Source: Betaproteobacteria bacterium
GTDB taxonomy: Bacteria; Pseudomonadota; Gammaproteobacteria; Burkholderiales; Casimicrobiaceae
Direction of reading: 5' to 3'
DNA: 64,000 nucleotides
Assembly (NCBI GenBank): GCA_013298695.1
Contig: JAAFIS010000001.1
Span: 434,001-498,000 of the forward strand
Part shown: positions 5,922 through 61,947 of the stretch, piece by piece
Layout of the letters: each line of letters starts with the position of its first letter
How positions within the stretch are numbered: position 1 is the stretch's first letter
Translations under genes and position numbers: made by a program
Notes under the pieces: generated by a model
The model's database searches: none
The model's input: only the letters and a program-made list of their open reading frames with translations
What the model was told of the DNA's origin: nothing

Positions 5922-8438
5922 ATGGGTACAAAGCTTTTTGCCGTCGGCAAAACTCGCGGCATTCAACTGCACAGTCTTGGCAAGGCCGCGTCAAGGTGTG
6001 CCACTGCCATCTTGGCCGGCGCAGCGCTCGCGACGCACGCTGCGGTGATCACAGTTGACTCAGCCGCTGACGACATCTTTCCTGATTCAACCGGCGCGCT
6101 CTTCGATTTTGCAGGCTCGCCCGTCGCGCCGCCCGCTTCGCCAAAATGCACGCTGCGCATGGCAATCGCTGCGGCGAATCTCAACACAGCAATCGGCGGC
6201 GCGAACGGCTGCCCAGCGGGTGCGGCAAGCCCTACCATCGACGTCATTCAGTTTGGAGCGTTGTTTGGCACGACGCAAACAATAACGCTCGCAAACAAGT
6301 TAACGGCAGCCGTACCCCCGAGTTACAGCCTTTCCGGCGCGGGAGTGCCATCGACGCTCGTCGCTTCTGAAAGTTTGACGATCACTGGCCCGGGCTCTTC
6401 GCTACTAACGGTCGACGGTGCAAGCCCGGGCAGCGGCAACTTGCGCACTTTGTTACTAAGCGACGGCAGCTCCACTGCGCTTTCAACATTTAGCGTGACC
6501 GGAATCAAGCTTGTTCGCGGCCGCACCCTCGACGGCGGCGGTGGGTGCATGTTTTCCTCCGACAATTTGAGTTTGAACGACGTCGTTTTCGAAGCCTGCG
6601 AATCAGTTGGCGGCGCAACCAATATCGGCATTGGCGGCGCGTTGGGCGCTGGTAACACCGACATCGCCTTTCGGCCGAATGTCTCGCTGCAAAACGTGAA
6701 GTTTTTGAGCAATCGCGCGCTTCGCGGCAGCAACGCGGCTTTCTCGCTTGGCGGCGCTGCGTTCATCGGTTCTGGAACGCGATACGTGGGTGCGGTGAGC
6801 TTGACTAATGTGCAAGCGATTGGAAATTCCGCTGAGGCGGTCGGTGCGATTCAAGTGCAAAGAGCAGCCTCGGTCAGCGTTGCAGACAGCGTGGTCGCTT
6901 CAAATTCGGCAACGGGTGACTACAGTGCCGCTAACGCGTCGAATGGGCGTTTTGGCGGAATGCGGGTGTTTGACGTGACGGGCAACGTCACGATTAGTCA
7001 GAGCGGTTTTGTCAGCAATTACGCGCAGGTTGAACGCGGCGGTCTTTCCATCGTGACGGTGACTGGTACGACGACGATCACCGACACGTCGTTTGTCGGT
7101 AACGTCGCTCGCAATGGGCGCATCGGCGGCTTCGAAATCTTGAGTCGCTTTGGTCCTGTGAGTAATCTTTGTGACGGAACGACGGGCGGTAACGTCTCTC
7201 TCAGCAATGTGTTTGTTGAGAAGAACATTGCGCCGATATCCACAGGTGGCTTTCGCATTCTGTGCGCGGGGGACGTGAGTCTCACCAACGTCGAAGCGGT
7301 TAGCAACGAAGCTTCAGGCGGCCCGGCCTACGGGGTGTTTGCGGCGGGCGGATCAACAGCCGCATTTTTTATCGGTGCTGTCGGCAATAGCGTCGGCGCT
7401 GTCACCATGTCAAACGTACGGATCATCGGCAACCGCTCGTTTAGCTATGAATCGGCTCCCAGCGTTTTGGTTGGCGGCTTCACCATTGCCAACGTGACTG
7501 ATGCAGCTTCGCTCAGTGCCGACAAACTCATCGTGCGTGACAATCAGGTTCAACGGGGTGAAAGCGGCATTTCGCTGCGCGCCAACAGTGCAGCGCGCAG
7601 CTACGTGGTCACCCAATCTGAATTCACGGGCAATATCAGTGAGAACGGGCACGGCCCATTCGATACGGCGGGCGACGGTCAATACACATTACGCAACAGC
7701 ACCGTTGCCCACAACCTGATGTTTGGTAACGGCGGTGCAATCCATGCAAACGTCCACACCAACACCACAAACGGCATCGCTTTCACGCTCGAAAACGTGA
7801 CGTCCGCGCGAAATCGCGGCAATTTTTCGGAGGCGTTTTACGTGAATACGTTTGTGTCGTCGGGCGTACCCAATGGCAGCAATTCCACGGTCACGGTGAA
7901 AAACTCGATTCTTGGTGGACGTACGTTTCCTTCGCCCACCGACTCGGCTCAGGTCGAAAGCATCATCGGCACGTTCGTCAGCACAAACAATGTTGTTGAA
8001 TCAACTGGAGGAGGGAAAAACTTCTGCAGCGGCGCAGGTGTTGTTTGCAACGTCGATGCAAAGATTGAAAACGCCGCCACGCTGGATCCGCAAGTCACGA
8101 AAACTATGGCGTTGCGCCCAGGCAGTCCGGCGCTAGATGCGGGTAACTCCGCGGGAGTTGCCGCGTTTGATCAGCGCGGTACGGGTTTCCCGCGAGTGAT
8201 TGGTAGCGCGGTAGACATCGGCGCTTTCGAATCGCCAGCGCTTACCGCAGTATTACCATGCAAACTCGATATGGACGGCGACAGCCAAACAACCGCAACC
8301 AAAGAAGGGCTCGTATTGCTGCGTTCGATGCTGGGTTTCACAGCGGCGGCCGCCGTGGCGAACACCGGAATCCTGCAAAGCAATTGGGAGGCGGTTCGCG
8401 CCAACCTCAACGCCAACTGCGGAACGAATTTGCCGTGA
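5922..8438 (+). CDS. Secreted right-handed beta-helix protein with C-terminal Ca-binding module
   Basis: An 838-residue exported protein. A signal peptide with Ala-rich core covers roughly residues 1-40, followed by CTLRMAIAAANLN (a CSLREXLT-type motif found at the head of many extracellular beta-helix proteins). Residues about 130-700 consist of repeated short strands with frequent N/G/S turns such as NVTI and LENV, typical of a parallel beta-helix. The C-terminus has LDMDGDSQTTATKEGLVLLR, a calcium-loop plus helix unit like a single dockerin/EF-type repeat. RBS GGGGG lies eight bases before the ATG. It is likely an adhesin or surface glycan-related protein; no catalytic residues can be assigned. 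Confidence 0.8.
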   Translation: MGTKLFAVGKTRGIQLHSLGKAASRCATAILAGAALATHAAVITVDSAADDIFPDSTGALFDFAGSPVAPPASPKCTLRMAIAAANLNTAIGGANGCPAGAASPTIDVIQFGALFGTTQTITLANKLTAAVPPSYSLSGAGVPSTLVASESLTITGPGSSLLTVDGASPGSGNLRTLLLSDGSSTALSTFSVTGIKLVRGRTLDGGGGCMFSSDNLSLNDVVFEACESVGGATNIGIGGALGAGNTDIAFRPNVSLQNVKFLSNRALRGSNAAFSLGGAAFIGSGTRYVGAVSLTNVQAIGNSAEAVGAIQVQRAASVSVADSVVASNSATGDYSAANASNGRFGGMRVFDVTGNVTISQSGFVSNYAQVERGGLSIVTVTGTTTITDTSFVGNVARNGRIGGFEILSRFGPVSNLCDGTTGGNVSLSNVFVEKNIAPISTGGFRILCAGDVSLTNVEAVSNEASGGPAYGVFAAGGSTAAFFIGAVGNSVGAVTMSNVRIIGNRSFSYESAPSVLVGGFTIANVTDAASLSADKLIVRDNQVQRGESGISLRANSAARSYVVTQSEFTGNISENGHGPFDTAGDGQYTLRNSTVAHNLMFGNGGAIHANVHTNTTNGIAFTLENVTSARNRGNFSEAFYVNTFVSSGVPNGSNSTVTVKNSILGGRTFPSPTDSAQVESIIGTFVSTNNVVESTGGGKNFCSGAGVVCNVDAKIENAATLDPQVTKTMALRPGSPALDAGNSAGVAAFDQRGTGFPRVIGSAVDIGAFESPALTAVLPCKLDMDGDSQTTATKEGLVLLRSMLGFTAAAAVANTGILQSNWEAVRANLNANCGTNLP

Positions 8439-50212: not shown

Positions 50213-52231
50213 CTAACCCTCGTTCAAAGGAATCGTGAATCTAAAAATTGTGCCACCGCCCGTATTGTCTTCGAATGTGAGGCGTCCCTCATGATATTCA
50301 ATGAGAGATCGACAGATATTGAGCCCCATACCCATCCCGTCGGCTTTGGTACTAAAGAACGGTGAAAACAGCTGTGATGCCGCCTCTGCGGGTATTCCCG
50401 TGCCGCGATCAAGAACTTCAACCGCGACCATATCGCCGTCAATCCTGCGCGTGCGCACGATCGCGACTCGCTCATGTGGTTTTAGGTGCTGCATCGCTTC
50501 GCGTGCGTTGCGCAGCAGGTTTAGCAAAACTTGCTCGATCATGATTCGGTCTGCAAATACTTGCGGAAGATTTGCTTCAAGATCGAACGGCACGCGAAGC
50601 GCGCGTGCCTCATCGTCGCTTTCCACAAGCTCCGCAGTCTCGGTCACCAGCGCATTGATATCGAGCGGTCGACGATCAGGCTCGCGGGTTCGCACGAAAT
50701 CGCGAACTCGCGAAATGATTGCACCGGCGCGAGACACCTGCGCCTCTGCCTTTTCCATCGCTGCGATAACGGTCGGATCAGGATTGCCGTTGCCGCGCAA
50801 ACGTCGAATACAGCCATTGACGTAGTTCGCGATAGCGGCAAGCGGCTGATTGATTTCATGGGCGAGCGTCGATGCAATTTCGCCGATCGACATCAGGCGC
50901 GAGGTGCGCGTGAGCTTTTCCTGCTGGGTCTGACGAATCCGCTCAGCGAATACGCGGTCTGTCACATCGCCTAGCGTGGTGAGGCGCGCAAGGCGGCCAT
51001 CAACCCATCTCACCGCGCGCGTGCGCATCAAAAAAAAGCGGTTGGTCGCGCGATGTTCAAGCTCGTCGACCAACACTTCTCCAGGTTCACCATCATCGCG
51101 CACTAGCCGCAACGTGGGATACCGCGTTACCGGACTTTCCACAAATCCAGTTTCGAACTCACGCGCATCCTGACCGACGCTGATGCCGGGGAACGTCTCG
51201 CGGAGTCGAGCGTTGGCAAACAAGATCGAGTTGCTATCCAGTTCAGATACATAGACTGACACGTCGAGAGAATCAAGCACCGTTTCAAATCGTTCGTTGG
51301 TCGTTTTTAGCGACGCTATTGATTGCAGGTAGACGCGATCACGCTCACTTTCTGCGAGCTGGCGCATGCGTTGTTGCTTTCGCAAACTGATAAGCGTCCA
51401 CACCATTAGCGCAGTGAGCGCGATGACCGCCGTTGAAAGCGTAATGTTGGGTAGTAACGAGGTAGGTTTGGCACCGACCAATGTGAGCGAGAGGTTTCGC
51501 CACGGAAGACTCAATGGAATCGTGTGCTGAAACGCGTTTGTTTCGAGCTGAGTTGCCTCTGCGCTGGTGATGCCGATCCCGTCGCTGTCGCGAATGATCA
51601 TGCGGTATTTGCTGTGTGCCCATTCGGGGGCCGCGCGAAGCAACAACAACTCGAACGAAATGACCGCGTTAATCGTGCCGTCATAGCGCGTTTGCGTAAT
51701 GACGGGTGCCGCGTACTCAATGAAATAGCGCCCCGTCCCATTTCGAAACGGTTGCGAATAGGTACTGCGCGAAGTTTTCTCAGTGATCGCGGACATTCGA
51801 ATTTGATCGACAAACGGAGCACGATTTGCGCGCAAAGTCTCAAGCGAATTGAGCGCCGGCGCATGTCGCGTCACGTCCAGGTTCGGTTTGACGCGCAGGA
51901 TGTCGGTGATGTAGCCGGACTCAATCGCACGATTGCTGGCGATCCGATCAAACTCAGCTGACGAAAAACGCTCGTCGCCCATGTCAATGGCGAGTCGGTC
52001 TAGAAACAGTTGATCAGAATCGAGTCTTCGGGAAATAGACTGTTCTACGAGCGCCGAATCGCGCAGAATTTCGCTGCGTTCGAGTTCTGCCTCGTGTTTT
52101 GCCACGAAATAGATGAAGAGCAACATGCCGACAGCAAACAGCAAAAGCAGCCATTCCTGGACGTACCAATCCCGTGCCCGTTCAGGGAGCGCACGCAGGC
52201 GTGAGGTAAGCGAATTCGAACGCGGCATCAA
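50213..52231 (-). CDS. FixL/DctB-like membrane sensor histidine kinase
   Basis: A 672-residue kinase. A membrane helix at about 25-45 and another at about 260-280 enclose a periplasmic sensor domain of CHASE or Cache type. A PAS-like region follows (RFETVLDSLDVSVYVSE), then HisKA (IGEIASTLAHEINQPLAAIANYV) and the ATPase (VLLNLLRNAREAMQHL, GMGMGLNICRSLIEYHEGRL). The HEINQP motif is typical of the FixL/DctB branch. The start could be the second Met. It should phosphorylate the adjacent FixJ-type regulator; the signal is unknown. It is divergent from the CBS gene. Confidence 0.9.
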   Translation of the reverse strand: MMPRSNSLTSRLRALPERARDWYVQEWLLLLFAVGMLLFIYFVAKHEAELERSEILRDSALVEQSISRRLDSDQLFLDRLAIDMGDERFSSAEFDRIASNRAIESGYITDILRVKPNLDVTRHAPALNSLETLRANRAPFVDQIRMSAITEKTSRSTYSQPFRNGTGRYFIEYAAPVITQTRYDGTINAVISFELLLLRAAPEWAHSKYRMIIRDSDGIGITSAEATQLETNAFQHTIPLSLPWRNLSLTLVGAKPTSLLPNITLSTAVIALTALMVWTLISLRKQQRMRQLAESERDRVYLQSIASLKTTNERFETVLDSLDVSVYVSELDSNSILFANARLRETFPGISVGQDAREFETGFVESPVTRYPTLRLVRDDGEPGEVLVDELEHRATNRFFLMRTRAVRWVDGRLARLTTLGDVTDRVFAERIRQTQQEKLTRTSRLMSIGEIASTLAHEINQPLAAIANYVNGCIRRLRGNGNPDPTVIAAMEKAEAQVSRAGAIISRVRDFVRTREPDRRPLDINALVTETAELVESDDEARALRVPFDLEANLPQVFADRIMIEQVLLNLLRNAREAMQHLKPHERVAIVRTRRIDGDMVAVEVLDRGTGIPAEAASQLFSPFFSTKADGMGMGLNICRSLIEYHEGRLTFEDNTGGGTIFRFTIPLNEG

Positions 52232-52243
52232 CGAATTCTAGTT

Positions 52244-52270
52244 TGTTGAATTTCGGTGTACGCTATCGCA
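52244..52270 (+). promoter_or_regulatory. Degenerate ECF42-like promoter before the CBS gene
   Basis: TGTTGA (52244-52249), a 17-base spacer and CGCA (52267-52270) differ by a base or two from the pattern seen upstream of the two enzyme genes further on. The spacing is exact but the -10 element is poor, so this is speculative; if functional it would make the sigma factor operon autoregulated. Confidence 0.25.
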
Positions 52271-52335
52271 TGAAAACACAGCGCGCCGAATCACGCGCAT
52301 TTTGAAGACGCCGCTCGCGTCGCTAGGAGGCTTGC

Positions 52336-52794
52336 ATGTTGGTGAGTGAAATTCTTCGAATCAAAGGCTCAACGCTGTTCACAGCGACGCCCGACATGAC
52401 GATGGCGCACGCCGTTGAAGCAATGGCGGAAAACGACATTGGCTCGTTGGTGGTCATGAACCGTGGAAAGCTCTGTGGGATGCTCACATTTCGCGAGCTG
52501 ATCAAGGTTTTGCATCAGCGCGGCGATGAAATGAAGCTGATGACCGTTGACGCTGTGATGGAACAAAACCCGTTGACTGCCGATCCCGGTATGGACGTTC
52601 AGGCGCTACGAAAATCGATGCTTGATCGACACGCGCGCTACATACCGGTGATGGATGGCGACATGCTTCTGGGTGTTCTGTCGTTTCATGACGTCGCGAA
52701 AGCGGTTTACGAAGAGCAGAGCTTCGAAAACAAAATGCTCAAGAGCTACATCAAGAATTGGCCCGACGAAGAAGAAGCCGCTGCGCAGGGGTAA
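52336..52794 (+). CDS. CBS-domain pair protein
   Basis: A 152-residue protein with an excellent AGGAGG site. Two CBS motifs are visible (residues about 5-62: VSEILRIKGSTL, ENDIGSLVVMN, MLTFRELIK; and 68-130: DAVMEQNPLTADPG, HARYIPVMDGDMLLGVLSFHDVAK). CBS pairs bind adenosyl nucleotides and regulate partners. Its stop codon TAA is in the same reading frame as the downstream sigma factor, and only one codon separates it from the likely CTG start, so the two proteins are tightly coupled or, after readthrough, fused. Confidence 0.88.
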   Translation: MLVSEILRIKGSTLFTATPDMTMAHAVEAMAENDIGSLVVMNRGKLCGMLTFRELIKVLHQRGDEMKLMTVDAVMEQNPLTADPGMDVQALRKSMLDRHARYIPVMDGDMLLGVLSFHDVAKAVYEEQSFENKMLKSYIKNWPDEEEAAAQG

Positions 52795-52797
52795 CGG

Positions 52798-54063
52798 CTG
52801 GAAGCTCGATCTGCGTCTGATGTTGCAGTTACCATCGACGACGTTTACCGTCGCGATTCCCGTCGCGTACTGGCGACCCTGATTCGATTGCTTGGCGATT
52901 TCGATCTTGCGGAAGAGGCGCTTCATGAAGCGTTTCGAGCGGCTGTTGAGCAATGGCCCGCATCCGGTATTCCGGACAATGTGGTCGCCTGGTTGGTGTC
53001 GGCAGGTCGGTTCAAAGCGATTGACAACATTCGTCGGCAGGCGCGTTTTCAAAGCTTTGATGCGAATGAGAGCACGGAGGCGCACGTGCTCGCGTTGGTT
53101 GACGATGCGGTTGCTTGGCACGAACGCGAAGAGATTGCGGATGATCGACTGCGCTTGATTTTTACGTGTTGCCATCCTGCGCTTGCGCCCGACGCGCAGG
53201 TTGCGCTCACGCTGCGCGAAGTGTGTGGATTGACGACTGAGGAAATCGCGCGCGCTTATCTCACTGCTGCCCCCACAATCGCGCAGCGGATCGTGCGTGC
53301 AAAAACCAAAATTCGTGAAGCTAGGATTCCATACGAAGTGCCGGAGGGCGACGCAAGACGTGAGCGCATGCACGCGGTGTTGCGAGTGATTTATTTGGTT
53401 TACAACGAAGGATACCTTTCAACACAATCCACCAACGACCAAGCGAAAAACTTGGCTAACGAAGCAATATATCTATGTCGGTTGCTTCACGAACTAGACG
53501 GATCGCCCAATGCAGTCGGGCTTCTGGGGCTCATGCTGCTACAGGAGGCGCGTCGCGCGGCGCGATTTAGTCTGTCGGGAGATTTAGTGCTTCTCGAAGA
53601 ACAGGATCGCTCAACTTGGGATCGCGCGATGATTGAAGAGGGTGTTGTGCATACACGCGGCGCACTCCGACAAGGAAGCGTCGACATCTATTCGATTCAG
53701 GCAGCGATTGCCGCTGTTCACTCCGAGGCAGCCAGTTACGAAGAAACCGACTGGGCGCAGGTGGTGGGCTTGTACGACGTGCTGACGCGGCTTGATCCTT
53801 CCCCGGTGGTTTCGTTGAACCGTGCGGTGGCGGTCGCGATGCGCGATGGTGCTCCGGCGGGTCTCGCGCTAATTGAAGTGCTGCTGACGAACCCAGCCCT
53901 GCAAAACTATCACCTCGCACATGCTGCGCGAGCAGATCTCTGCCGCCGACTCCAACGCTTCGCCGACGCCCGCTACTCGTACGAGCGCGCCCTTGAGCTT
54001 GCACAGCAACCAGCGGAGCAGCGTTTCCTGAAGCGGCGAATCAACGAATTGTCCGCGTCGTAA
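52798..54063 (+). CDS. ECF42-type RNA polymerase sigma factor with C-terminal TPR/DUF6596 extension
   Basis: The conserved N-terminus DDVYRRDSRRVLATLIRLLGDF lies upstream of the first canonical start (TTG at 52888), so translation must begin earlier. No ATG, GTG or TTG occurs in frame after the CBS stop; a CTG at 52798 has CAGGGG six bases before it and is chosen here (421 residues). Region 2 (LAEEALHEAF, RFKAIDNIRRQ) and region 4 (LREVCGLTTEEIARA, IAQRIVRAKTKIREA) are followed by a long helical extension of about 220 residues as in ECF42 proteins. Ten stress-type genes follow. Start is inferred. Confidence 0.85.
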   Translation: MEARSASDVAVTIDDVYRRDSRRVLATLIRLLGDFDLAEEALHEAFRAAVEQWPASGIPDNVVAWLVSAGRFKAIDNIRRQARFQSFDANESTEAHVLALVDDAVAWHEREEIADDRLRLIFTCCHPALAPDAQVALTLREVCGLTTEEIARAYLTAAPTIAQRIVRAKTKIREARIPYEVPEGDARRERMHAVLRVIYLVYNEGYLSTQSTNDQAKNLANEAIYLCRLLHELDGSPNAVGLLGLMLLQEARRAARFSLSGDLVLLEEQDRSTWDRAMIEEGVVHTRGALRQGSVDIYSIQAAIAAVHSEAASYEETDWAQVVGLYDVLTRLDPSPVVSLNRAVAVAMRDGAPAGLALIEVLLTNPALQNYHLAHAARADLCRRLQRFADARYSYERALELAQQPAEQRFLKRRINELSAS

Positions 54064-54079
54064 ATAATTTGTGAGAACC

Positions 54080-54106
54080 TGTCGAAATGGGTTTGGACCG
54101 TTCGAC
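54080..54106 (+). promoter_or_regulatory. Predicted ECF42 promoter, before the first SRPBCC gene
   Basis: TGTCGA (54080-54085), 17 bases, CGAC (54103-54106) lie about 40 bases before the ATG at 54145. This fits the TGTCGA / CGA(T/C) motif reported for ECF42 factors as I recall it, and its spacing equals that of the second site at 54573. Confidence 0.65.
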
Positions 54107-54144
54107 TACTCTGAAACTCATTCAATACAGAAAGCACTCTCATC

Positions 54145-54555
54145 ATGAAAATCACCGTCGAAACGCACGTCAAAGCGCCAATAGCAAAGGTCTGGCACGC
54201 ATGGAACAACCCCGACGATATCGTTGAGTGGAACGCAGCGTCAGACGACTGGCACACCACTCGATCCACGGTCGATCTTCGTGTGGGTGGCAACTTTAGT
54301 TCTCGGATGGAGGCGAAGGACGGCAGCTTTGGATTCGACTTTGAAGCTAGCTACACGAAAATTGTTGAACACGAACTCATTGAGTTTTCGATGGGCGACC
54401 AGCGCTCGGTACAGGTGCAATTTGTTTCCGACGCGAACGGCGTCACGGTACGCGAAACCTTCGATTCCGAGCCTACGCATTCAATCGAGCAGCAGCGCGA
54501 TGGCTGGCAAGCGATCCTGAACCGCTTCGCGAAACACGTTGAAGCAAAAAACTGA
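54145..54555 (+). CDS. SRPBCC/AHSA1-family protein
   Basis: A 136-residue START-like protein. VETHVKAPIAKVWHAWNNPDDIVEWN is the family N-terminus and HSIEQQRDGWQAILNRFAKHVE the C-terminal helix. Members bind hydrophobic ligands in a deep cavity or activate Hsp90 homologues; the ligand here is unknown. It directly follows the ECF42 sigma factor gene and a predicted ECF42 promoter, and two other SRPBCC genes occur later in the row. Confidence 0.85.
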   Translation: MKITVETHVKAPIAKVWHAWNNPDDIVEWNAASDDWHTTRSTVDLRVGGNFSSRMEAKDGSFGFDFEASYTKIVEHELIEFSMGDQRSVQVQFVSDANGVTVRETFDSEPTHSIEQQRDGWQAILNRFAKHVEAKN

Positions 54556-54572
54556 AATTGTTTTCGGTAAGT

Positions 54573-54599
54573 TGTCGAATTCGGCGAGCCTCGTTCGAT
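54573..54599 (+). promoter_or_regulatory. Predicted ECF42 promoter, before the VOC gene
   Basis: TGTCGA (54573-54578), 17 bases, CGAT (54596-54599), about 37 bases before the ATG at 54637. The same pattern and spacing as the site at 54080. Between the two, the sequence is otherwise unrelated, so the shared boxes are not explained by duplication. Confidence 0.65.
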
Positions 54600-54636
54600 T
54601 AAGGCATACCAATCACCACTTTATACGGAGCTTCAA

Positions 54637-55059
54637 ATGCCACAACCGATTCCCTATCTCTCATTCGACGGCAACTGCACCGAGGCCGTGCGCTTTTATG
54701 AACGGGTATTCAACGGCGATTTGCAAGCGCTCATGAGCTACGGGGACACCCCCGGTTGCGAAGATATGCCCGCCGAAGCAAAAAAACGCATCATGCATGC
54801 CTGCCTCATCTTGTCGGACGGCGGCGTACTCATGGCAGGCGACTGCCCGCCGGGAATACCTTACGAACCCATGAAAGGCATCATGCTTGCGCTGACTTAC
54901 AAGACCGAAGATGAAGCCACGCGTATCTTCAACACGCTGACCGAAGGCGGCCAAATTACCATGCCGCTCGCCCCCACTTTTTGGGCAAAAACCTTTGGCA
55001 TGGTCACTGACAAATTCGGTGTTGGCTGGGGCATCAACGGAGAGGAAATTCCTGTTTAA
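54637..55059 (+). CDS. VOC-family (PhnB/glyoxalase-like) protein
   Basis: A 140-residue protein. IPYLSFDGNCTEAVRFYERVF is the start of the PhnB-like VOC fold and GVLMAGDCPP and FGVGWGING the later strands. Members bind divalent metal and include dioxygenases, resistance proteins and isomerases; the activity is not assigned. It leads the larger same-strand row. A few bases upstream is a second predicted ECF42 promoter. Confidence 0.83.
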   Translation: MPQPIPYLSFDGNCTEAVRFYERVFNGDLQALMSYGDTPGCEDMPAEAKKRIMHACLILSDGGVLMAGDCPPGIPYEPMKGIMLALTYKTEDEATRIFNTLTEGGQITMPLAPTFWAKTFGMVTDKFGVGWGINGEEIPV

Positions 55060-55090
55060 CCGGTTAGTAGCGCCTACTAGGAGCAGCAAA

Positions 55091-55459
55091 ATGAAATATG
55101 TCGATGGTTATTTGATCCCAGTACCAAACGCGAAACGCGATGCCTACATCAAGCTCGCGAAGACTGCCGCCTCCGTGTTCAAGGACTGTGGCGCACTATC
55201 TGTGACCGAGTGTTGGGGGGACGATGTGCCGCCGGGCAAGCTCACCTCATTCCCGCTGGCGGTGAAACTAGAGGCCGACGAATCCGTTGTTTTCTCTTGG
55301 GTTGCGTGGCCTTCGCGTGAGGCTCGCGACTCAGGAATGAAGCAATTTATGTCTGATACCCGTCTTCAACCCTACGACATGCCATTTGACGGCAAACGCA
55401 TGATATTTGGCGGCTTCCAAGCAATCGTCGACGAACAATTTGCAGAGGGCGCCGTGTGA
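55091..55459 (+). CDS. DUF1428 protein
   Basis: A 122-residue protein starting MKYVDGYLIPVPNAKRDAYIK, with TSFPLAVKLEADESVVFSWV and RMIFGGFQAIVD, the full DUF1428 pattern (a dimeric alpha/beta-barrel fold). The function of the family is unknown. RBS TAGGAG is well placed. Its stop overlaps the GTG start of the next gene. Lying in the ECF42 row, it is probably coregulated with it. Confidence 0.85.
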   Translation: MKYVDGYLIPVPNAKRDAYIKLAKTAASVFKDCGALSVTECWGDDVPPGKLTSFPLAVKLEADESVVFSWVAWPSREARDSGMKQFMSDTRLQPYDMPFDGKRMIFGGFQAIVDEQFAEGAV

Positions 55460-56103
55460 GCAAATTACGCGTAGCCGCGTTCGGCGTTTCGCGTGATGGA
55501 TTCGGCGCAGGGCTCGAACAAAGCCTGCAACATCCTATGGGACTTGGCGGAATGATGTTGCACGAATGGGCTATGCCTACGCGCACATTGCAACGAATGT
55601 TTGGTAACGAAACTGGGATGCTCGGTATCGACGATGATTTCGCTGCCCGCGGTTTCGAAAACGTAGGCTCATGGATTCTCGGTCGCAACATGTTTGGACC
55701 CATTCGCGGCAACTGGCCAGACGATGCGTGGAAAGGTTGGTGGGGCGATGAACCGCCGTATCACGTGCCGGTGTTTGTGCTCACGCATTATCCGCGTGCT
55801 TCCATCGAAATGAAAGGCGGCACCGTGTTTCATTTCGAGACCGATGGCATTGAGGTAGCACTCAACCGCGCACGCGACGCGGCGCAAGGAAAAGACGTAA
55901 GAATCGGCGGTGGTGCCGCAACAATTCGTCAATACCTGCGCGCAGGAAAAATCGACGAAATGCATCTTGCGATTTCACCGAAACCGCTGGGAAGTGGGGA
56001 AGCGCTTTTCACTGGAATTGATCTCGTACAGCTCGGATATCAGACGACTGAGCATGTCGCAACCGAGGCCGCAACGCATGTGGTTTTGACACGCAAATCG
56101 TAA
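55456..56103 (+). CDS. Dihydrofolate reductase-family (RibD C-terminal-like) protein
   Basis: A 215-residue protein from GTG 55456, overlapping the preceding stop. The DHFR-like blocks VAAFGVSRDGFGAG, GRNMFGP and RIGGGAATIRQYLRAGKIDEMHLAI belong to the RibD C-terminal reductase family. NADPH-dependent reduction of a pterin- or pyrimidine-like substrate is expected. A stand-alone copy without the deaminase domain, common in soil bacteria. The real substrate is unknown. Confidence 0.85.
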   Translation: MSKLRVAAFGVSRDGFGAGLEQSLQHPMGLGGMMLHEWAMPTRTLQRMFGNETGMLGIDDDFAARGFENVGSWILGRNMFGPIRGNWPDDAWKGWWGDEPPYHVPVFVLTHYPRASIEMKGGTVFHFETDGIEVALNRARDAAQGKDVRIGGGAATIRQYLRAGKIDEMHLAISPKPLGSGEALFTGIDLVQLGYQTTEHVATEAATHVVLTRKS

Positions 56104-56123
56104 ACTGTTCTGGAGAACTGAGT

Positions 56124-56567
56124 ATGCCCGGCAATACCATCAAACTTCATCGCGTACTTCGCACAACGCCCGAAAAACTCTATCTCGCGTTTACCGAACC
56201 CGGCGCGTTTGCAAAATGGATTCCACCAAACGGTTTCTATTGCACCGTGCATTCGATGGACGCAAAAGTGGGCGGCAGCCATCGTGCGTCGTTTACCAAT
56301 CTCACCACCGGGCATGGCCACTCATTTGGTGGTACGTACCTCGAACTCTCGCATGAACGCATTCGCTACACCGACAAATTCGACGATCCGAATCTGCCTG
56401 GCGAAATGATCGTCACCGTGTCCATGAAGAAGGTCTCGGTCGGCGTTGAACTCAACATCACACAAGAGAACGTGCCCGAAGTGATTCCGCCCGAAGCGTG
56501 TTACCTCGGCTGGCAAAAATCGCTCGCGAATCTCGCGGCACTGGTCGAGCCTGATATACCGAATTAA
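56124..56567 (+). CDS. SRPBCC-family protein (second copy)
   Basis: A 147-residue START-like protein (LHRVLRTTPEKLYLAFTEPGAFAKWIPPNGF, GHSFGGTYLELS, GWQKSLANLAALVEP). It differs clearly from the first SRPBCC protein at 54145. RBS GGAG is eleven bases before the ATG. Part of the same-strand ECF42 row. Confidence 0.85.
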   Translation: MPGNTIKLHRVLRTTPEKLYLAFTEPGAFAKWIPPNGFYCTVHSMDAKVGGSHRASFTNLTTGHGHSFGGTYLELSHERIRYTDKFDDPNLPGEMIVTVSMKKVSVGVELNITQENVPEVIPPEACYLGWQKSLANLAALVEPDIPN

Positions 56568-56591
56568 TCTTCACCCGAAGGACTGACAATC

Positions 56592-57212
56592 ATGATCACC
56601 GTATTTGGCGAAGGCAGAGGCTTTCGCGTTGTTTGGTTGCTGGAGGAGATGGGGCTTGCGTACAAACTGCGCCCCGTCGATCTGTTGGCGGGCGTTGAGA
56701 ACGATCCCGAGTACCTGAAGATCAATCCCGCCGGTTTCATTCCAGCGATTCAAGATGGCGCGACGACAATGGTGGAGTCCATTGCAATCATGCAATATCT
56801 GATGGCGCGCTACGGACCAACGCCGCTTGCTCCGGAATCGCATGATCCGGCTTTCGCGTTGTACTTGCAGTTTCTCCATCTGGGCGAAGCCGGCCTTGCG
56901 GTGCCTGCGAACGCAGTTCTTGTCGCTCGCCACTTCGCGCCCGAGAACGAACGCGATAACTTTCTTGCCCGCTGGGCGCTGCAAACGTTCGAGAGTCGGT
57001 TGGGACTCGTGACCCGCCAGCTGGCTCACTCCGACTATCTCGCTGGCGAAACGTTCACTGCGGCCGACATCTCTGTGACGTACGCCCTTGGGTTGGCGGC
57101 CAGGCACGCCAACGTCCAACTCGGCGCAATTGAGCAAGCGTACATCGCCCGCAACACTGAACGCGACGCCTATCAGCGCGCCATGAAAGCCCTTAACGCT
57201 ACAAAGGAATGA
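56592..57212 (+). CDS. Glutathione S-transferase-family protein
   Basis: A 206-residue GST. The thioredoxin-like N-terminal domain contains GFRVVWLLEEMGLAYK and the conserved VESIAIMQYLM, which binds glutathione. The C-terminal helical domain contains DYLAGETFTAADISVTYAL, the usual structural motif. It conjugates glutathione to electrophiles or acts as peroxidase. Its place beside a GFA protein points to a thiol or electrophile stress role for the row. Confidence 0.9.
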   Translation: MITVFGEGRGFRVVWLLEEMGLAYKLRPVDLLAGVENDPEYLKINPAGFIPAIQDGATTMVESIAIMQYLMARYGPTPLAPESHDPAFALYLQFLHLGEAGLAVPANAVLVARHFAPENERDNFLARWALQTFESRLGLVTRQLAHSDYLAGETFTAADISVTYALGLAARHANVQLGAIEQAYIARNTERDAYQRAMKALNATKE

Positions 57213-57285
57213 GTCAGCTCGCTTGCGAATGGAGAGACATCTTTGCGCGACAAGACATAAGCATTTCTACGAGAAGAGAATCGTC

Positions 57286-57687
57286 ATGAAAAAAACCTAT
57301 CGTGCTTCGTGTCACTGCGGCAGCGTTGTTGTTGAAGCCGCGCTTGATCTAAGCGAACCGAGCTTTCGTTGCAACTGCTCGATTTGTCGGCGTACGCGCT
57401 TTTGGCCGAGCGTTGCAACGCCCGATGAATTTCGAATTGTTAGTGGTGAAAACGAACTCACAAAATACGAGTTCGGCTCAAAGAAAAATCATCACTTCTT
57501 TTGCAAACAATGCGGTGTTCGTGTGTTCGGTAAAGGCAATGAAACGCCAATTGGCGTGATGTATGGCGTGAACCTTGGCTGCGTTGAAGGCGTGAGTGAG
57601 GAAGATCTCGCGAAGATTCCAATCGTTTACGTGGACGGCATACATGATCGTTGGAGCGAAGCGCCAGCGGTGACTAAGCATTTGTGA
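57286..57687 (+). CDS. GFA-family (glutathione-dependent formaldehyde-activating-like) protein
   Basis: A 133-residue zinc protein. The ligands are CHCGS near the N-terminus, FRCNCSICRR and FFCKQCG in the middle, the complete GFA set. Its model, Gfa, accelerates formaldehyde plus glutathione adduct formation; most homologues have unknown substrates. An alternative start at 57223 is unlikely because it lacks the family N-terminus. Next to the GST gene, supporting a role in thiol chemistry. Confidence 0.87.
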   Translation: MKKTYRASCHCGSVVVEAALDLSEPSFRCNCSICRRTRFWPSVATPDEFRIVSGENELTKYEFGSKKNHHFFCKQCGVRVFGKGNETPIGVMYGVNLGCVEGVSEEDLAKIPIVYVDGIHDRWSEAPAVTKHL

Positions 57688-57740
57688 TGAAAATTCTGCG
57701 GCAAAAGCTCGCTGTTAGCGAAAAGGAAAGGTAGCAAAAT

Positions 57741-58196
57741 ATGGCGATGATCAAATTGAATTTTTCGATCACTATCAACGCGAGCAAAGAACGTGTGTGG
57801 CAAGCGATGTTCGCCGACAAAACCTATCGCGAATGGACAAGTGCATTCATGCCCGGTTCGTATTTCGAAGGCAGTTGGGAAACGGGTAGTCCAATTCGCT
57901 TTCTCATGCAAGATGAGCTGGGTAACGTCGGCGGGATGCTTAGCCGAATCGCAGAGAGTAAGCTCTTCGAGTTTATGGGTATTGAACATCTCGGCATGGT
58001 AAACGCGGGTGTTGACGACACCGAGAGCGACGCGGCGAAAGCGTTTGCAGGCGCGCGTGAAGACTACTACTTCAGCGAAAAGAACGGCGTGACGACCATT
58101 CGCGTCGAGCAAGATATGAGCGAGGAATATGCCCCCATGATGCAAGAGGCGTGGCCCAAGGCGCTAAACATTTTGAAGGCACTCTCTGAGGCCTAG
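57741..58196 (+). CDS. SRPBCC-family protein (third copy)
   Basis: A 151-residue protein of the AHSA1 type (FSITINASKERVWQAMFADKTYREWTSAF, FEGSWETGSPIRFL, MMQEAWPKALNILKAL). RBS GGAAAGG precedes the ATG. Its N-terminal motif resembles proteins from ECF sigma factor-associated clusters. Function unknown. Confidence 0.85.
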   Translation: MAMIKLNFSITINASKERVWQAMFADKTYREWTSAFMPGSYFEGSWETGSPIRFLMQDELGNVGGMLSRIAESKLFEFMGIEHLGMVNAGVDDTESDAAKAFAGAREDYYFSEKNGVTTIRVEQDMSEEYAPMMQEAWPKALNILKALSEA

Positions 58197-58253
58197 CGCC
58201 ACACACGATAGTCGCGTTTAGAGAACACTTTCATCAGTCACCGCAATGAACCT

Positions 58254-58646
58254 ATGCATACAGATATTAATAAGTATCACGAAGTACTTACTCCGAGTGA
58301 TCGGGAGATTTGCACGCGTCTGGCCGACGAGATCGAGCTGCATCTTGCGGGCGCTGAAAGTAAGGTGTGGCACGCACATCCGGTATGGTTTTTGGAGGGC
58401 AATCCCATTGTGGGCTACAGCACACAAAAGCCAGGAATACGATTGATGTTCTGGAGCGGTGCAGATTTCGATGAACCGACGCTGAACGTGGTGGGCAAGA
58501 AGTTTAAAGACGCGTCAATTTTCTTCAACACGGTGGCGGAAATTGATTCGTCCGACTTGAGCAGATGGCTACTTAAAGCCGCTACGGTTCAGTGGGATTA
58601 CAAAAACATTGTTAAGAGAAAAGGACAACTGCTGCGCTTAACGTAA
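58254..58646 (+). CDS. DUF1801 protein
   Basis: A 130-residue protein. KVWHAHPVWFLEGNPIVGYS and IRLMFWSGADFDEP match DUF1801/YdhG-like proteins, and LSRWLLKAATVQWDYKNIVKRKGQ the C-terminal helix. These are commonly encoded beside ECF sigma factors and SRPBCC genes. No function is known. It stays on the plus strand, 57 bp after the third SRPBCC gene. Confidence 0.78.
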   Translation: MHTDINKYHEVLTPSDREICTRLADEIELHLAGAESKVWHAHPVWFLEGNPIVGYSTQKPGIRLMFWSGADFDEPTLNVVGKKFKDASIFFNTVAEIDSSDLSRWLLKAATVQWDYKNIVKRKGQLLRLT

Positions 58647-58673
58647 TGCGCACCCATTGTCCGAGGAGTCGCT

Positions 58674-59057
58674 ATGAAATACTTATGCCTTGTTTATTTG
58701 AGCCAAGAAAATTGGAACGCGTGCCCGGATGAAACGTGTTTTGAATACGCGAATCACCTCGTCGATACTGGAAAGATGATTGCTGCGGAGCCTCTGCATC
58801 CCGTGGAAACTGCGACCACGGTGCGCGTTCGCAACGGTCAAATGTCAATGACTGATGGCCCGTTCGCTGAAACGAAGGAAATGCTCGCTGGCTTCTATTT
58901 GATCGACGCGAAAGACTTGAATGACGCCGTGAGCGTCGCTGCGAAAATTCCGCCTGCCAAATACGGCAGCATCGAAGTGCGACCCGTGCGTGAGCTTGAT
59001 GTTCCGAGTTATCAATCGGTGACCGATACCACCGCACTAACAAGCAACGCGGGGTGA
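58674..59057 (+). CDS. DGPF/YCII-domain protein
   Basis: A 127-residue protein that begins MKYLCLVYLSQENW and has the diagnostic MTDGPFAETKEMLAGFYLIDA. YCII-related DGPF proteins are the hallmark partners of ECF42 sigma factors in genome context studies; their function is unknown. Its presence at the end of the row supports the ECF42 assignment. RBS GAGGAG is close to the ATG. Confidence 0.9.
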   Translation: MKYLCLVYLSQENWNACPDETCFEYANHLVDTGKMIAAEPLHPVETATTVRVRNGQMSMTDGPFAETKEMLAGFYLIDAKDLNDAVSVAAKIPPAKYGSIEVRPVRELDVPSYQSVTDTTALTSNAG

Positions 59058-59122
59058 CCGCACAGTTGAATTTTTTCGTCGCTTGTTCGACGGGCTCAAC
59101 TAAATCGTCGGCGAGTTTGCGT

Positions 59123-59599
59123 TCAGAGTCGAAGGACGAAATTGGCCATGTCAGGGCGCTCTATCCATCCGCGTTTTTCGTAGAAACCGCGTCGATACGA
59201 TTCGCGATCACGATCATTGAGTAGAGAGAGTCGGCTACAACCCCGTCGCTTCGCTTCTTGTACGACGACATCGAGTAGCGCGGAGCCATGCCCGCCGCCT
59301 GCAGCGGCGGTGTCGACAAAGAGCTCCGTGACGTAGGCTTCGCCCCCTTGCATGAACAAAAACGGCACCCAGTGAACCGCGCAGTATGCGACCACCTCGC
59401 AGTCGCCATTCTCGCTAACGAAAACGCTCGACGATCCCGAGGCATGCGCTTTGGCAATGCTCGTACGAACAATTGCAACTGTTGTGTCAAGCGGCCTTGA
59501 CTGCACGCTTCGAATGTCTTCAATTCCGCGCAATACGCGTGCGATGCTTTCAGCATCCTCGTTGACGGCTTCGCGTATGTTCATCGCGTTATCTCCCAA
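59123..59599 (-). CDS. GNAT-family N-acetyltransferase
   Basis: A 158-residue GNAT protein. YVTELFVDTAAAGGGHGSALLDVVVQEAKRRG is the acetyl-CoA binding motif A and LSLLNDRDRESYRRGFYEKRGW motif B. The substrate is unknown. It overlaps the stop of the EamA gene by about ten bases, so the two are coupled; a second ATG at 59584 would avoid this. It is convergent with the ECF42 row. Confidence 0.85.
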   Translation of the reverse strand: MGDNAMNIREAVNEDAESIARVLRGIEDIRSVQSRPLDTTVAIVRTSIAKAHASGSSSVFVSENGDCEVVAYCAVHWVPFLFMQGGEAYVTELFVDTAAAGGGHGSALLDVVVQEAKRRGCSRLSLLNDRDRESYRRGFYEKRGWIERPDMANFVLRL

Positions 59600-60497
59600 G
59601 TTTGCGGCTGGGTAGTATCACCATGCCCACAGCGGCACACAGCGCAAGCAACGCCACGTAATCAAAGGGTCGCGGCGACTCTCCTAACAGCAGCATGCCG
59701 CTGACGAAGCCGACGATGGGCACCGCGAGTGAACTGATCCCGGTGACCTGCGCGGGCAGCGCACGCACGAGTTCGTTCCACGCGAACCAACAAAAGCCAA
59801 ACACGATGATCATGTTGTAGAGCAGTCCCATCCAGCCGGCTGCGCTGGTCGGAAAATAAGCCGGGTGCGGTTGGATCAGCGCGCCGAGGATGATCGGCCA
59901 GCCGCCAACGATGAAGCTCCAGAAAGTGATCGTTGTCGTCGGTACACTGCGTGGAAAGCCTTTGGTAAGGATGATGCCAAAAGCCCATACGAGGCCCGAC
60001 GCAACCATCAGCAATGCGCCAATCGGTGCTTTTTGTAATGCGGCAAATTCGTCAATCAGCAGTAGCGCAATTCCACCCATCCCGACAGAAATCGCGAGTA
60101 CTCGTTTGAAGGTGAGCGCTTCGCCAAGCATCGGGCGTGACAGCAATACAACCCACAACGGCATCGTGTACGCGAGGATACCTGCGCGTCCGGAGGGCAA
60201 TAGCGATAGGCCAGCGGCTGAAAGCAAATTCCAGCCGGCGACGTTGCACATCGCCGCAATCGCGAGGCGCCGCCAATGTTCGCGAGGCAAGGAAAAACTC
60301 GTTTTTGTTTTGAGGTGATAGCCGAGGAACCAAAGCGCACCTGCGACGATGCACGCGCTGCGGAAGATAAAAACATCGAGCTCGGACAACGCCATCTTCA
60401 TCATGGGCCAATTGACGCCCCAAAGCAGGACGACGGCAATGAAGAGAAAGAGTTCGCGGCGAGGAAGCAAGGCGTGGACAGTTCCTAAAAAGTACAA
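59589..60497 (-). CDS. EamA/DMT-family transporter
   Basis: A 302-residue integral membrane protein with about ten hydrophobic segments in two homologous halves, as in the EamA duplication. WGVNWPMMKMAL and a second-half GWMGLLYNMIIVFGFCWFAWNELVRALPAQ are family motifs. It probably exports a metabolite or amino acid. The downstream GNAT gene overlaps it slightly, so both likely belong to one operon. Confidence 0.87.
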   Translation of the reverse strand: MYFLGTVHALLPRRELFLFIAVVLLWGVNWPMMKMALSELDVFIFRSACIVAGALWFLGYHLKTKTSFSLPREHWRRLAIAAMCNVAGWNLLSAAGLSLLPSGRAGILAYTMPLWVVLLSRPMLGEALTFKRVLAISVGMGGIALLLIDEFAALQKAPIGALLMVASGLVWAFGIILTKGFPRSVPTTTITFWSFIVGGWPIILGALIQPHPAYFPTSAAGWMGLLYNMIIVFGFCWFAWNELVRALPAQVTGISSLAVPIVGFVSGMLLLGESPRPFDYVALLALCAAVGMVILPSRKLGR

Positions 60498-60765
60498 CCA
60501 GCTACGCTTCTATTCGCCCAATCAAATTGGGCGATCAGTAGCGTTTCTAGTATTTTCGCGAAATAGTAAATAATGTATCCACGCCCTCTTTAATTGGGCT
60601 TTCTGGTAGAGAGCTGATCTTAGACTGAAAGGTTAAACTCTGTAGTGCGTTCATAGTTCCCTTCCGCAAGCTGAGGATCAACTTGCCTCACCACGAACAC
60701 ATTGCGAGGGCTCACCACGAACGGGGCGAGCTAGTACACAGCGAAACTGAGCTGAGCCATCGCGC
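60498..60765. other. Intergenic region with repeat copy E and REP-like fragments
   Basis: The 268 bp hold copy E of the dispersed hairpin element (60515-60600) and two partial REP-like motifs (CTCACCACGAACAC at about 60689 and CTCACCACGAACGG at about 60711). No gene is supported. Confidence 0.6.
60515..60600 (+). repeat. Dispersed bipartite hairpin element, copy E (reference copy)
   Basis: Left hairpin CGCCCAAT-CAA-ATTGGGCG (60515-60533) and right hairpin GCCC-TCTTTAATT-GGGC (60583-60599) are 68 bases apart from start to start, the same as copy D. Copy F on the other strand shares the string TTGGGCGATCAG with it. Confidence 0.78.
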
Positions 60766-61947
60766 TTAGTGAAGCTGCACGCCATGCGTATCGGCGTCTT
60801 CCGGCAAATGAGCGTGCAACATTTCGCCGTCGCGATTCGGGAAATGCGGTGCGCCGCAATCGTCACAAAACTCAAGCGGTAATTGCTCTTCCAACACGAT
60901 GACGTTACCAACGCCCGATGCGCGGAGCAGGGTCTCAATTTCTTCGACGACGGGCGTATCTTCGGCTTCGTCAGAGAGCAGCGGCCAGATCGTTCCATGG
61001 ACGATATCGTCATCGTCGCCGAGCGAAAAACCGATGCGATATTCCTCGATGCCATTGCCCCAGCAGCCGCCAATGGTTGCCGTGATTTTGCTAGCAGGTG
61101 TTGCCACCACCGCTTCGAGATAAGCGACTGATGCGCCAATTGAAAACGCTCGTGACGATAAATCCGCATCACGACATGCAGCGAAAAATGTGCGCGGCAG
61201 CGTAAGCTCAAACGGAAAGCCCACGAATAGCGGCTGGATTGCGGCGCTGCCTTGACTGCGCCATGCGGACAAACACGACTGTCGCGCTTCTTCTACAGGC
61301 GTGGTCATTTCCTCCCACGCAAACATTGGATCACCATCGGCCACTTGCACTGCGCCGATAATCATTCGCATATCGCACACCACGTCGGGCGCGTCTTCAA
61401 CACTTGCCGGATCAATCGCTAAATGCTCGCGCTCGCGGATCGCTTTCGCAAGCGACGTTAGCATCTCGCGCGATTCGCTATAGCTGTGCGGTAGCTGGTC
61501 GGGCGCAAACAAAAAGTCAGCGATTGCGATCTTCGCTTTCGACGCGAAAATGTGCGCTCCGAGCTGCACGTTGATGTTGGTCAGTGCCGATTTCGGAATT
61601 GTTTTCGCGGGGATTTTTGCTCGTCCCCACACCAATACAGGCGCGCAAAACAGCGTTACTCGCTGCTTGCCGAGTTCAGAATCCAGCGTGACCGATTCAG
61701 TCAGCGATTCAACGACATCAGCGAGGGCGTCGAAGGTTTCATCTTCTGCGTCGTGCGCTTTGTCTAGCGCCCGATTGATTGCCTCTTCGTCGTTGTTATC
61801 AAGATAACCTGTGACGGCAGCTTCGAGTTCGCGCTGCCAATAAATGTCTTCTGCGCTTGAGCGCGACGTCGCGAGCCCTTCGGCGAGGCGAACGAGTTGG
61901 TTGGTTTCACGGGTACCGCTTTTGCGGCGAAAAGGAGCGCGTGGCAT
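60766..61947 (-). CDS. DUF2863 protein
   Basis: A 393-residue cytosolic protein without membrane helices. KSGTRETNQLVRLAEGLATSRSSAEDIYW is the opening of DUF2863, a family limited largely to betaproteobacteria. The middle is rich in Asp/Glu/Ala, and a C-terminal CDDCGAPHFPNRDGEMLHAHLPE segment may bind a metal. No role is known. It lies 27 bp downstream of queG on the same strand. Confidence 0.8.
   Translation of the reverse strand: MPRAPFRRKSGTRETNQLVRLAEGLATSRSSAEDIYWQRELEAAVTGYLDNNDEEAINRALDKAHDAEDETFDALADVVESLTESVTLDSELGKQRVTLFCAPVLVWGRAKIPAKTIPKSALTNINVQLGAHIFASKAKIAIADFLFAPDQLPHSYSESREMLTSLAKAIREREHLAIDPASVEDAPDVVCDMRMIIGAVQVADGDPMFAWEEMTTPVEEARQSCLSAWRSQGSAAIQPLFVGFPFELTLPRTFFAACRDADLSSRAFSIGASVAYLEAVVATPASKITATIGGCWGNGIEEYRIGFSLGDDDDIVHGTIWPLLSDEAEDTPVVEEIETLLRASGVGNVIVLEEQLPLEFCDDCGAPHFPNRDGEMLHAHLPEDADTHGVQLH

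Follow-up and report, generated by a model that had tools for sequence, protein, structure and literature searches.

ECF42 sigma factors are widespread, and the promoters they recognise carry the motif TGTCGA / CGA(T/C). In Sinorhizobium meliloti, the ECF42 factor RpoE10 activates an operon for two proteins, one glyoxalase-like and one containing a hydrophobic-ligand-binding domain, and the three promoter sequences listed read TGTCGG-N17-CGTC (PMC6180224). In the ECF42 members studied, the C-terminal extension is essential for activity, and a partner, possibly the YCII protein, has been suggested to share in control; according to this review, no partner of the tetratricopeptide repeat (TPR) domain has been identified, and a role of YCII/DGPF is so far a suggestion (PMC8999054). 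This study concerns positions 52798-59057 (plus strand) of a 64,000-nucleotide stretch of a Betaproteobacteria genome (hereafter the window; contig JAAFIS010000001.1), where an ECF42-type sigma factor gene is followed by ten co-directional genes and promoter-like sites lie at 54080 (P1) and 54573 (P2). To judge from the sequence comparisons presented here, it is highly probable that the locus is a self-contained ECF42 regulon in which the sigma factor would act at P1 and P2 on the genes directly downstream; it clearly belongs to a known class and is not a new type of switch.

A preliminary description of this DNA had placed the two sites 35-40 bases before start codons, and they were found there, 38 (P1) and 37 (P2) bases from the ATG. 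It had read both as the short form TGTCGA-N17-CGAY and had named a background frequency of the motif in the genome as grounds for giving the reading up. Across the 4.08 Mb genome, 140 sites with N16-18 are present versus 26 for the pattern read backwards, and the N17 form gives 34 exact sites versus 7; this frequency is background-like, and the loose motif was dropped as evidence. The sites do not lie in otherwise unrelated sequence, as had been stated, since P1 and P2 share a longer motif of about TGTCGAW...CGTTCGAYTA. It is this longer motif that makes them exceptional and that rescues a claim which the loose form could not carry.

The fuller motif was derived from 99 loci with relatives of the sigma factor, comprising the best 80 of 151 from a contig search and 19 stretches from family genomes, the latter including two paralogues in the source genome. 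From 1.5 kb upstream to 2.5 kb downstream of the sigma gene, TGTCGR-N17-CGWY occurs 71 times in the sense and once in the antisense orientation, and the other spacings from 10 to 24 give 3-15 sense sites each, N13 excepted. The N13 spacing (48 sense, 12 antisense) was rejected as a second motif, as it fits an echo of CGTT inside CCGTTCGAC. A position weight matrix (PWM) was built from 69 distinct sites in 97 loci, with the window, the source genome and the sigma locus of a genus relative (locus L001 of genome G008) left out of training; its consensus is about TGTCGAWT...CCGTTCGACTA, and the training sites have a median leave-one-out score of 26.4 bits. Over the whole window, P2 (28.5 bits) and P1 (28.0 bits) are the top two matches, both close to the family consensus, and the third best reaches 13.1 bits. 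No match at 28 bits was found in 6.4 Mb of Markov sequence, and 0.003 matches are expected at this score in the whole genome under an order-0 model of independent bases, a value that is too low, because the Markov rate at 14 bits is about 2.7 times the independent-base rate. At 20 bits or more, 63 sites (mostly training sites) in 61 loci lie on the sigma strand and none on the other strand. Loci outside the training set also carry sites: L001 has a P2 counterpart at 6499 (27.7 bits), likewise ahead of a VOC gene, plasmid locus L201 has three (28.7, 28.1 and 24.1 bits), L203 has one (27.7 bits), and L202 scores 27.4 bits on the minus and 20.3 bits on the plus strand.

The distribution of the motif among relatives follows that of the sigma factor. 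Across 64 family genomes, a strict pattern, TGTCGAW-N12-CRWWCGAYYA, matches at 27 sites in 14 genomes, and its backward reading at a single site. Every one of the 13 genomes in which a close sigma match was found (identity 59-100%, E no higher than 7e-115) carries it, compared with 1 of the 51 remaining genomes (Fisher p 1e-12, uncorrected for relatedness). Seventeen of the 27 sites are at sigma loci, and within the genus (17 genomes) the three strict sites are each just downstream of the sigma gene, in the source genome (G000) and G008. The other ten, all in relatives and not in the source genome, precede YCII/DGPF genes (five), a VOC gene, an MFS gene and an HlyD/RND-type membrane-fusion gene (one each), and of the remaining two, one has an ambiguous, perhaps methyltransferase-like target and the other lies at most 170 nucleotides (nt) from a contig end with no gene called. 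The sites ahead of the MFS transporter and the HlyD/RND-type gene are loci L215 and L217 (G044:C1 and G056:C52); such targets hint at export of toxic compounds. Together, the PWM scores and the co-occurrence of the strict motif with the sigma factor argue that both sites are probably sigma-specific promoters, as had been proposed.

The class of the sigma factor is indicated by several features. Its Sigma70 domains were detected above the Pfam cut-offs (PF04542, E 3.1e-7; PF08281, E 1.8e-8), and residues about 184-421 form a C-terminal extension of about 200 residues that matches DUF6596 (E 4.2e-31); TPR models of Pfam match as well, below their cut-offs. An AlphaFold model based on an alignment of 31 sequences (mean pLDDT 87, pTM 0.82) has a helical C-terminal half, of which the top structural match is a TPR domain with Z 16.8 (root-mean-square deviation 3.6 over 200 aligned residues), where mostly helical models typically score Z about 14. 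Further traits of the ECF42 group are the DGPF/YCII neighbour at 58674-59057 and the fit of P1 and P2 to TGTCGA / CGA(T/C), with N17 spacing as in the three S. meliloti sequences (by eye). No anti-sigma factor gene was found in a general Pfam scan (E 0.001) of 16 proteins from 50213-61947. The ECF41 class was considered and rejected, as there is no SnoaL match at E 0.001 and DUF6596 and the TPR fold are present instead. The earlier assignment to ECF42 is therefore backed by domains, the TPR-fold model, the DGPF neighbour and the promoter match.

The position of the sigma start codon, given earlier as 52798, stands in that similarity to relatives begins upstream of 52888, and needs qualifying in that the codon there is CTG and not ATG, GTG or TTG, all three of which are lacking in frame between the upstream stop at 52792 and 52888. 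L001 has a TTG start at the same codon position (by eye), 17 codons before the first Arg of YRRDSRR; AGGGG lies directly upstream of the CTG, and the stop codon of the preceding CBS gene ends 3 nt before it. The simplest reading is that the sigma factor would start at this CTG, coupled to the CBS gene.

The layout of the locus is given in Table 1; the positions and Pfam domains agree with the ten plus-strand genes and families named in the preliminary description. All reading frames of the cluster are intact, and the gaps between the sigma gene and SR1 and between SR1 and the VOC gene are identical (exactly 81 nt each). The DGPF protein has a solved relative, PA1349 (structure 1s7i, E 6.5e-32). 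The run ends at 59057 and is followed by GNAT and then EamA genes on the minus strand.

Table 1. Genes and predicted promoters of the ECF42-type locus (positions in the window).
Feature	Position	Strand	Evidence and remarks
CBS-domain protein	52336..52794	+	PF00571 E 2.3e-21; conserved chromosomal site, outside regulon
ECF42-type sigma factor, C-terminal TPR extension	52798..54063	+	Sigma70_r2, Sigma70_r4_2, DUF6596; probable CTG start
Predicted promoter P1: -35 TGTCGA, N17, -10 CGAC	54080..54106	+	PWM 28.0 bits; strict pattern
SR1, SRPBCC/AHSA1 protein 1	54145..54555	+	PF08327 E 3.6e-20
Predicted promoter P2: -35 TGTCGA, N17, -10 CGAT	54573..54599	+	PWM 28.5 bits
VOC/glyoxalase-fold protein, YjdN/PhnB-like	54637..55059	+	PF00903, PF06983; NF007537 E 1.2e-21, below its cut-off
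DUF1428 protein	55091..55459	+	PF07237 E 4.5e-43
DHFR-like (RibD_C) protein	55456..56103	+	PF01872 E 3.6e-12; GTG start overlaps DUF1428 stop
SR2, SRPBCC/AHSA1 protein 2	56124..56567	+	PF08327 E 1.1e-23
Glutathione S-transferase-family protein (GST)	56592..57212	+	PF02798 E 9.2e-14
GFA-family protein	57286..57687	+	PF04828 E 2.6e-14
SR3, SRPBCC/AHSA1-like protein 3	57741..58196	+	PF08327 E 1.7e-4; 22.3 bits, cut-off 22.1
DUF1801 protein	58254..58646	+	PF08818 E 2.1e-8
DGPF/YCII protein, last gene of run	58674..59057	+	PF03795 E 9e-20; contains DGPFAETKE

In the proposed mechanism, the sigma factor would be made from the transcript of the CBS gene by translational coupling at the CTG start. In a PWM scan of the window, the region before the sigma gene gave no strong match; self-activation through this motif therefore seems not to occur, and the sigma factor is probably supplied by way of the CBS transcript. 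By analogy with the literature on the group, the TPR extension may let the sigma factor respond to a signal or partner protein. Once active, it would recruit RNA polymerase to the two sites that follow its gene, P1 and P2, with transcription expected to start at about 54112-54115 and 54605-54608, respectively. P1 would drive SR1, and P2 would drive the genes from VOC through DGPF as one operon, for which the short gaps and shared strand argue. Small reactive or toxic compounds are the probable ligands or substrates of the VOC, SRPBCC, GST, GFA and DHFR-like gene products. DGPF, encoded by the last gene of the sigma factor's own run, would be the likeliest feedback partner, which is a plausible role.

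How unusual this gene set is was assessed among 98 loci with sigma relatives, in 87 of which a DGPF-like gene lies near the sigma gene. The proteins of the window were searched by tblastn (E 1e-4, same strand, at most 6 kb from the sigma gene), giving matches for VOC in 21 loci, DUF1428 in 6, SR2 in 2, and SR3, GST and DUF1801 in 1 each, and none in the 98 loci for SR1, DHFR and GFA. A Pfam scan covered 75 of 120 called downstream proteins, mainly actinobacterial and near-duplicate loci being left out, and 5 of these (7 with VOC2 and GST2) come from L001. It yielded 42 YCII, 13 Glyoxalase, 3 DUF1428 and 3 AHSA1 proteins and 2 each of RibD_C, DUF1801 and GST_N; GFA is absent from the 25 families listed of the 36 obtained for these proteins. 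The usual company of ECF42 is DGPF, VOC and DUF1428; genes of the SRPBCC, GST, GFA and DHFR-like types are, in this sample, largely confined to this genus. The position of the DGPF-like gene also varies, being within 500 nt upstream of the sigma gene in 34 of the 37 actinobacterial loci and downstream in none of them, and downstream, as in the window, in 35 of the 61 others. Relatives of the sigma factor are found on plasmids as well (251 records, 134 of them over at least 80% of the protein), and none was found in the viral contigs searched.

The description of the locus as unusually rich is partly borne out. With ten downstream genes it has the longest run of the 97 loci for which genes were called, itself among them (runs of 7, 6, 6 and 5 come after it), and these run lengths are lower bounds, because the caller gave 0 where tblastn shows downstream genes (L135-L140); one locus (L149) has no calls and six run into contig ends. 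The number is not extreme, as runs of 5-8 exist elsewhere; what stands out is more the types of gene than how many there are. A centring on thiol proteins, also put forward, applies to the GST and the GFA-family gene and to just these 2 of the 10. The stress or detoxification function assigned to the regulon in the preliminary description is a putative one.

The history of the site was followed within the genus, where a close sigma gene is present in 2 of 17 genomes and the CBS gene in 16 of 17. The chromosomal site was compared in 15 relatives, namely G008, G007 and 13 others. In G008 the order is sigma-promoter-VOC-SR2-GST-SR3-DGPF-VOC2-GST2. In G007 (L170:4766-8473, on its contig C17), SR1, SR2, GST and a second GST are present; the sigma gene, the motif and a significant DGPF match are all absent from this site, and no significant relics of the sigma or VOC gene were found in its gaps. 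In 11 of the 13 others, no cluster-gene match lies between the CBS gene and a nearby EamA gene, the exceptions being a longer unexplained stretch in G015 and a weak DGPF match (24%) in G009. In a tree built from four flanking genes, G008, G000 and G007 fall together (0.999), and G000 and G007 are sisters (0.992). The simplest history suggested by these data is one gain in the ancestor of G008, G000 and G007, with the sigma gene, DGPF and motifs lost in G007; loss of the sigma gene together with the motif reads as a natural deletion experiment. Identity to L001 is 83% for DGPF, the best conserved cluster gene, 77% for SR2, 69% for the sigma factor and GST, 64% for VOC and 61% for SR3, versus 85% for the flanking CBS and 84% for the flanking DUF2863 protein. 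As a speculative possibility, ECF42 loci may grow modularly, by taking up cassettes of a promoter and its gene immediately after the sigma gene. One such cassette would be P1-SR1, whose 81-nt leader equals that of P2 in length, inserted between the sigma gene and P2-VOC in the ancestor of G000 and G007; the set of small-molecule genes would be tailored per lineage, in this one with the SRPBCC, GST, GFA and DHFR-like genes that seldom accompany other ECF42 factors, and loss of the sigma gene, as in G007, would remove motifs and DGPF and leave the ligand-binding genes in place.

A number of observations weigh against a self-contained regulon with two dedicated promoters. The exact pattern gave no site in 43 of the 97 training loci (54 had one). 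When genomes are counted as positive at a sigma match of E 1e-60, the motif is present in 13 of 16 versus 1 of 48; the three positives without a strict site (G043, G049 and G062) have sigma relatives that are just 44-45% identical. One genome, G028 (86% complete), has two strict sites (L212, L213) and no close sigma factor was found in it; one of these sites lies ahead of a DGPF gene. Further PWM matches of at least 14 bits occur in the source genome (23.8, 19.2, 18.2, 16.7 and 15.3 bits in 210 kb of loci), all five overlapping reading frames of 226 to 473 codons. The strongest, at C17:325155 (L196; C17 being a contig of the source genome), lies inside a 473-aa frame, with 0.06 such matches expected, and a gene that by eye resembles an ABC ATPase starts 145 nt beyond it; either the regulon is perhaps not purely local, or such scores can arise within genes. 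Within the locus, a terminator-like hairpin at 56608, inside GST, makes a single transcript from P2 to DGPF not certain.

The hairpin bears in particular on a narrower reading, in which the sigma factor would control only SR1, VOC and perhaps DUF1428-DHFR and the distal genes would depend on housekeeping promoters of their own. GFA, SR3 and DUF1801 are preceded by gaps of 73, 53 and 57 nt, respectively, which would fit such an arrangement, as would the lack of a match in the genus relative for DUF1428, DHFR, GFA and DUF1801. It is nevertheless rather unlikely, given that a single sigma-70-like site was found in 52000-59700 versus 4.7 expected by chance, that terminator-like sites in the same interval are at chance level (14 versus 11.3), and that in L001, which has one promoter site, SR2, GST, SR3 and DGPF follow that site in unchanged order and on the same strand.

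Another source of transcription might be sought on C17 of the source genome, where two further DUF6596 sigma genes point towards each other and both have a DGPF-like neighbour (L153:7139-11988). They belong to the same broad family in the same genome, and cross-talk among related sigma factors is common. Use of P1 and P2 by one of them is improbable, however, as no PWM match of at least 12 bits was found in the 19.9 kb around these paralogues (L153), which may use another promoter, and as G007, G012 and G019 carry a DUF6596 sigma factor without the strict motif, just like the distant relatives in G043, G049 and G062. Equally improbable is that the cluster is decaying, horizontally acquired cargo with functionless sites and genes: its patchy distribution in the genus, the sites without a cluster gene between CBS and EamA and the reduced version in G007 would agree with decay, whereas the intact reading frames, the nearness of both promoters to the family consensus and a DGPF conserved almost as well as the flanking CBS and DUF2863 proteins contradict it. 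Mere coincidence of two motif copies, which the frequency of the loose form might suggest, is contradicted by the PWM scores, the co-occurrence with the sigma factor and the strand bias, and its probability is negligible. The local regulon put forward in the preliminary description, with the sigma factor acting at P1 and P2, is the reading to which the strict-motif link, the PWM scores and the domain and model data point.

The locus offers a compact test bed, in which 6.3 kb hold a sigma factor, two clear predicted promoters, ten genes as candidate targets and a possible feedback partner, and to which the sister genome that lost the sigma gene adds value for work on the signal and on the role of DGPF. 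The motif could moreover serve to list ECF42 targets elsewhere; its matches in relatives lead to DGPF, VOC and efflux genes. Among described systems, S. meliloti RpoE10 resembles the window in its TPR-extended sigma factor, adjoining YCII gene and N17 spacing; its regulon is smaller and in two places, as opposed to ten genes in one run, its DGPF/YCII gene lies upstream of the sigma gene instead of last in the run, and its -35 element ends in G with a -10 of CGTC, in contrast to the final A and CGAY of the window (PMC6180224). The ECF42 factors of Streptomyces venezuelae (Sven_0747, 4377 and 7131) and ECF-10 of Pseudomonas putida, as described in a review, likewise have a TPR extension of about 200 residues and a YCII neighbour (PMC8999054). 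The actinobacterial loci in our sample have the DGPF-like gene before the sigma gene, whereas in the window promoters and DGPF come after it. The Pseudomonas aeruginosa plasmid pMKPA34-2 (L201, NZ_MH547561.1) has an ECF42-like sigma gene, eight co-directional genes (YciI x2, NTF2-like, VOC-type x4 and MATE) and three motif sites, a cluster rich in VOC and efflux genes with no SRPBCC, GST or GFA annotated in the stretch. L001 of G008 is at the same chromosomal site and has the sigma gene, a P2-like promoter, VOC, SR2, GST, SR3 and DGPF in the same order; it has one promoter site only, lacks matches to SR1, DUF1428, DHFR, GFA and DUF1801, and carries one additional gene each for VOC and GST after DGPF. 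Set beside these systems, the locus is very probably a real local ECF42 regulon of known type with a somewhat unusual target set.

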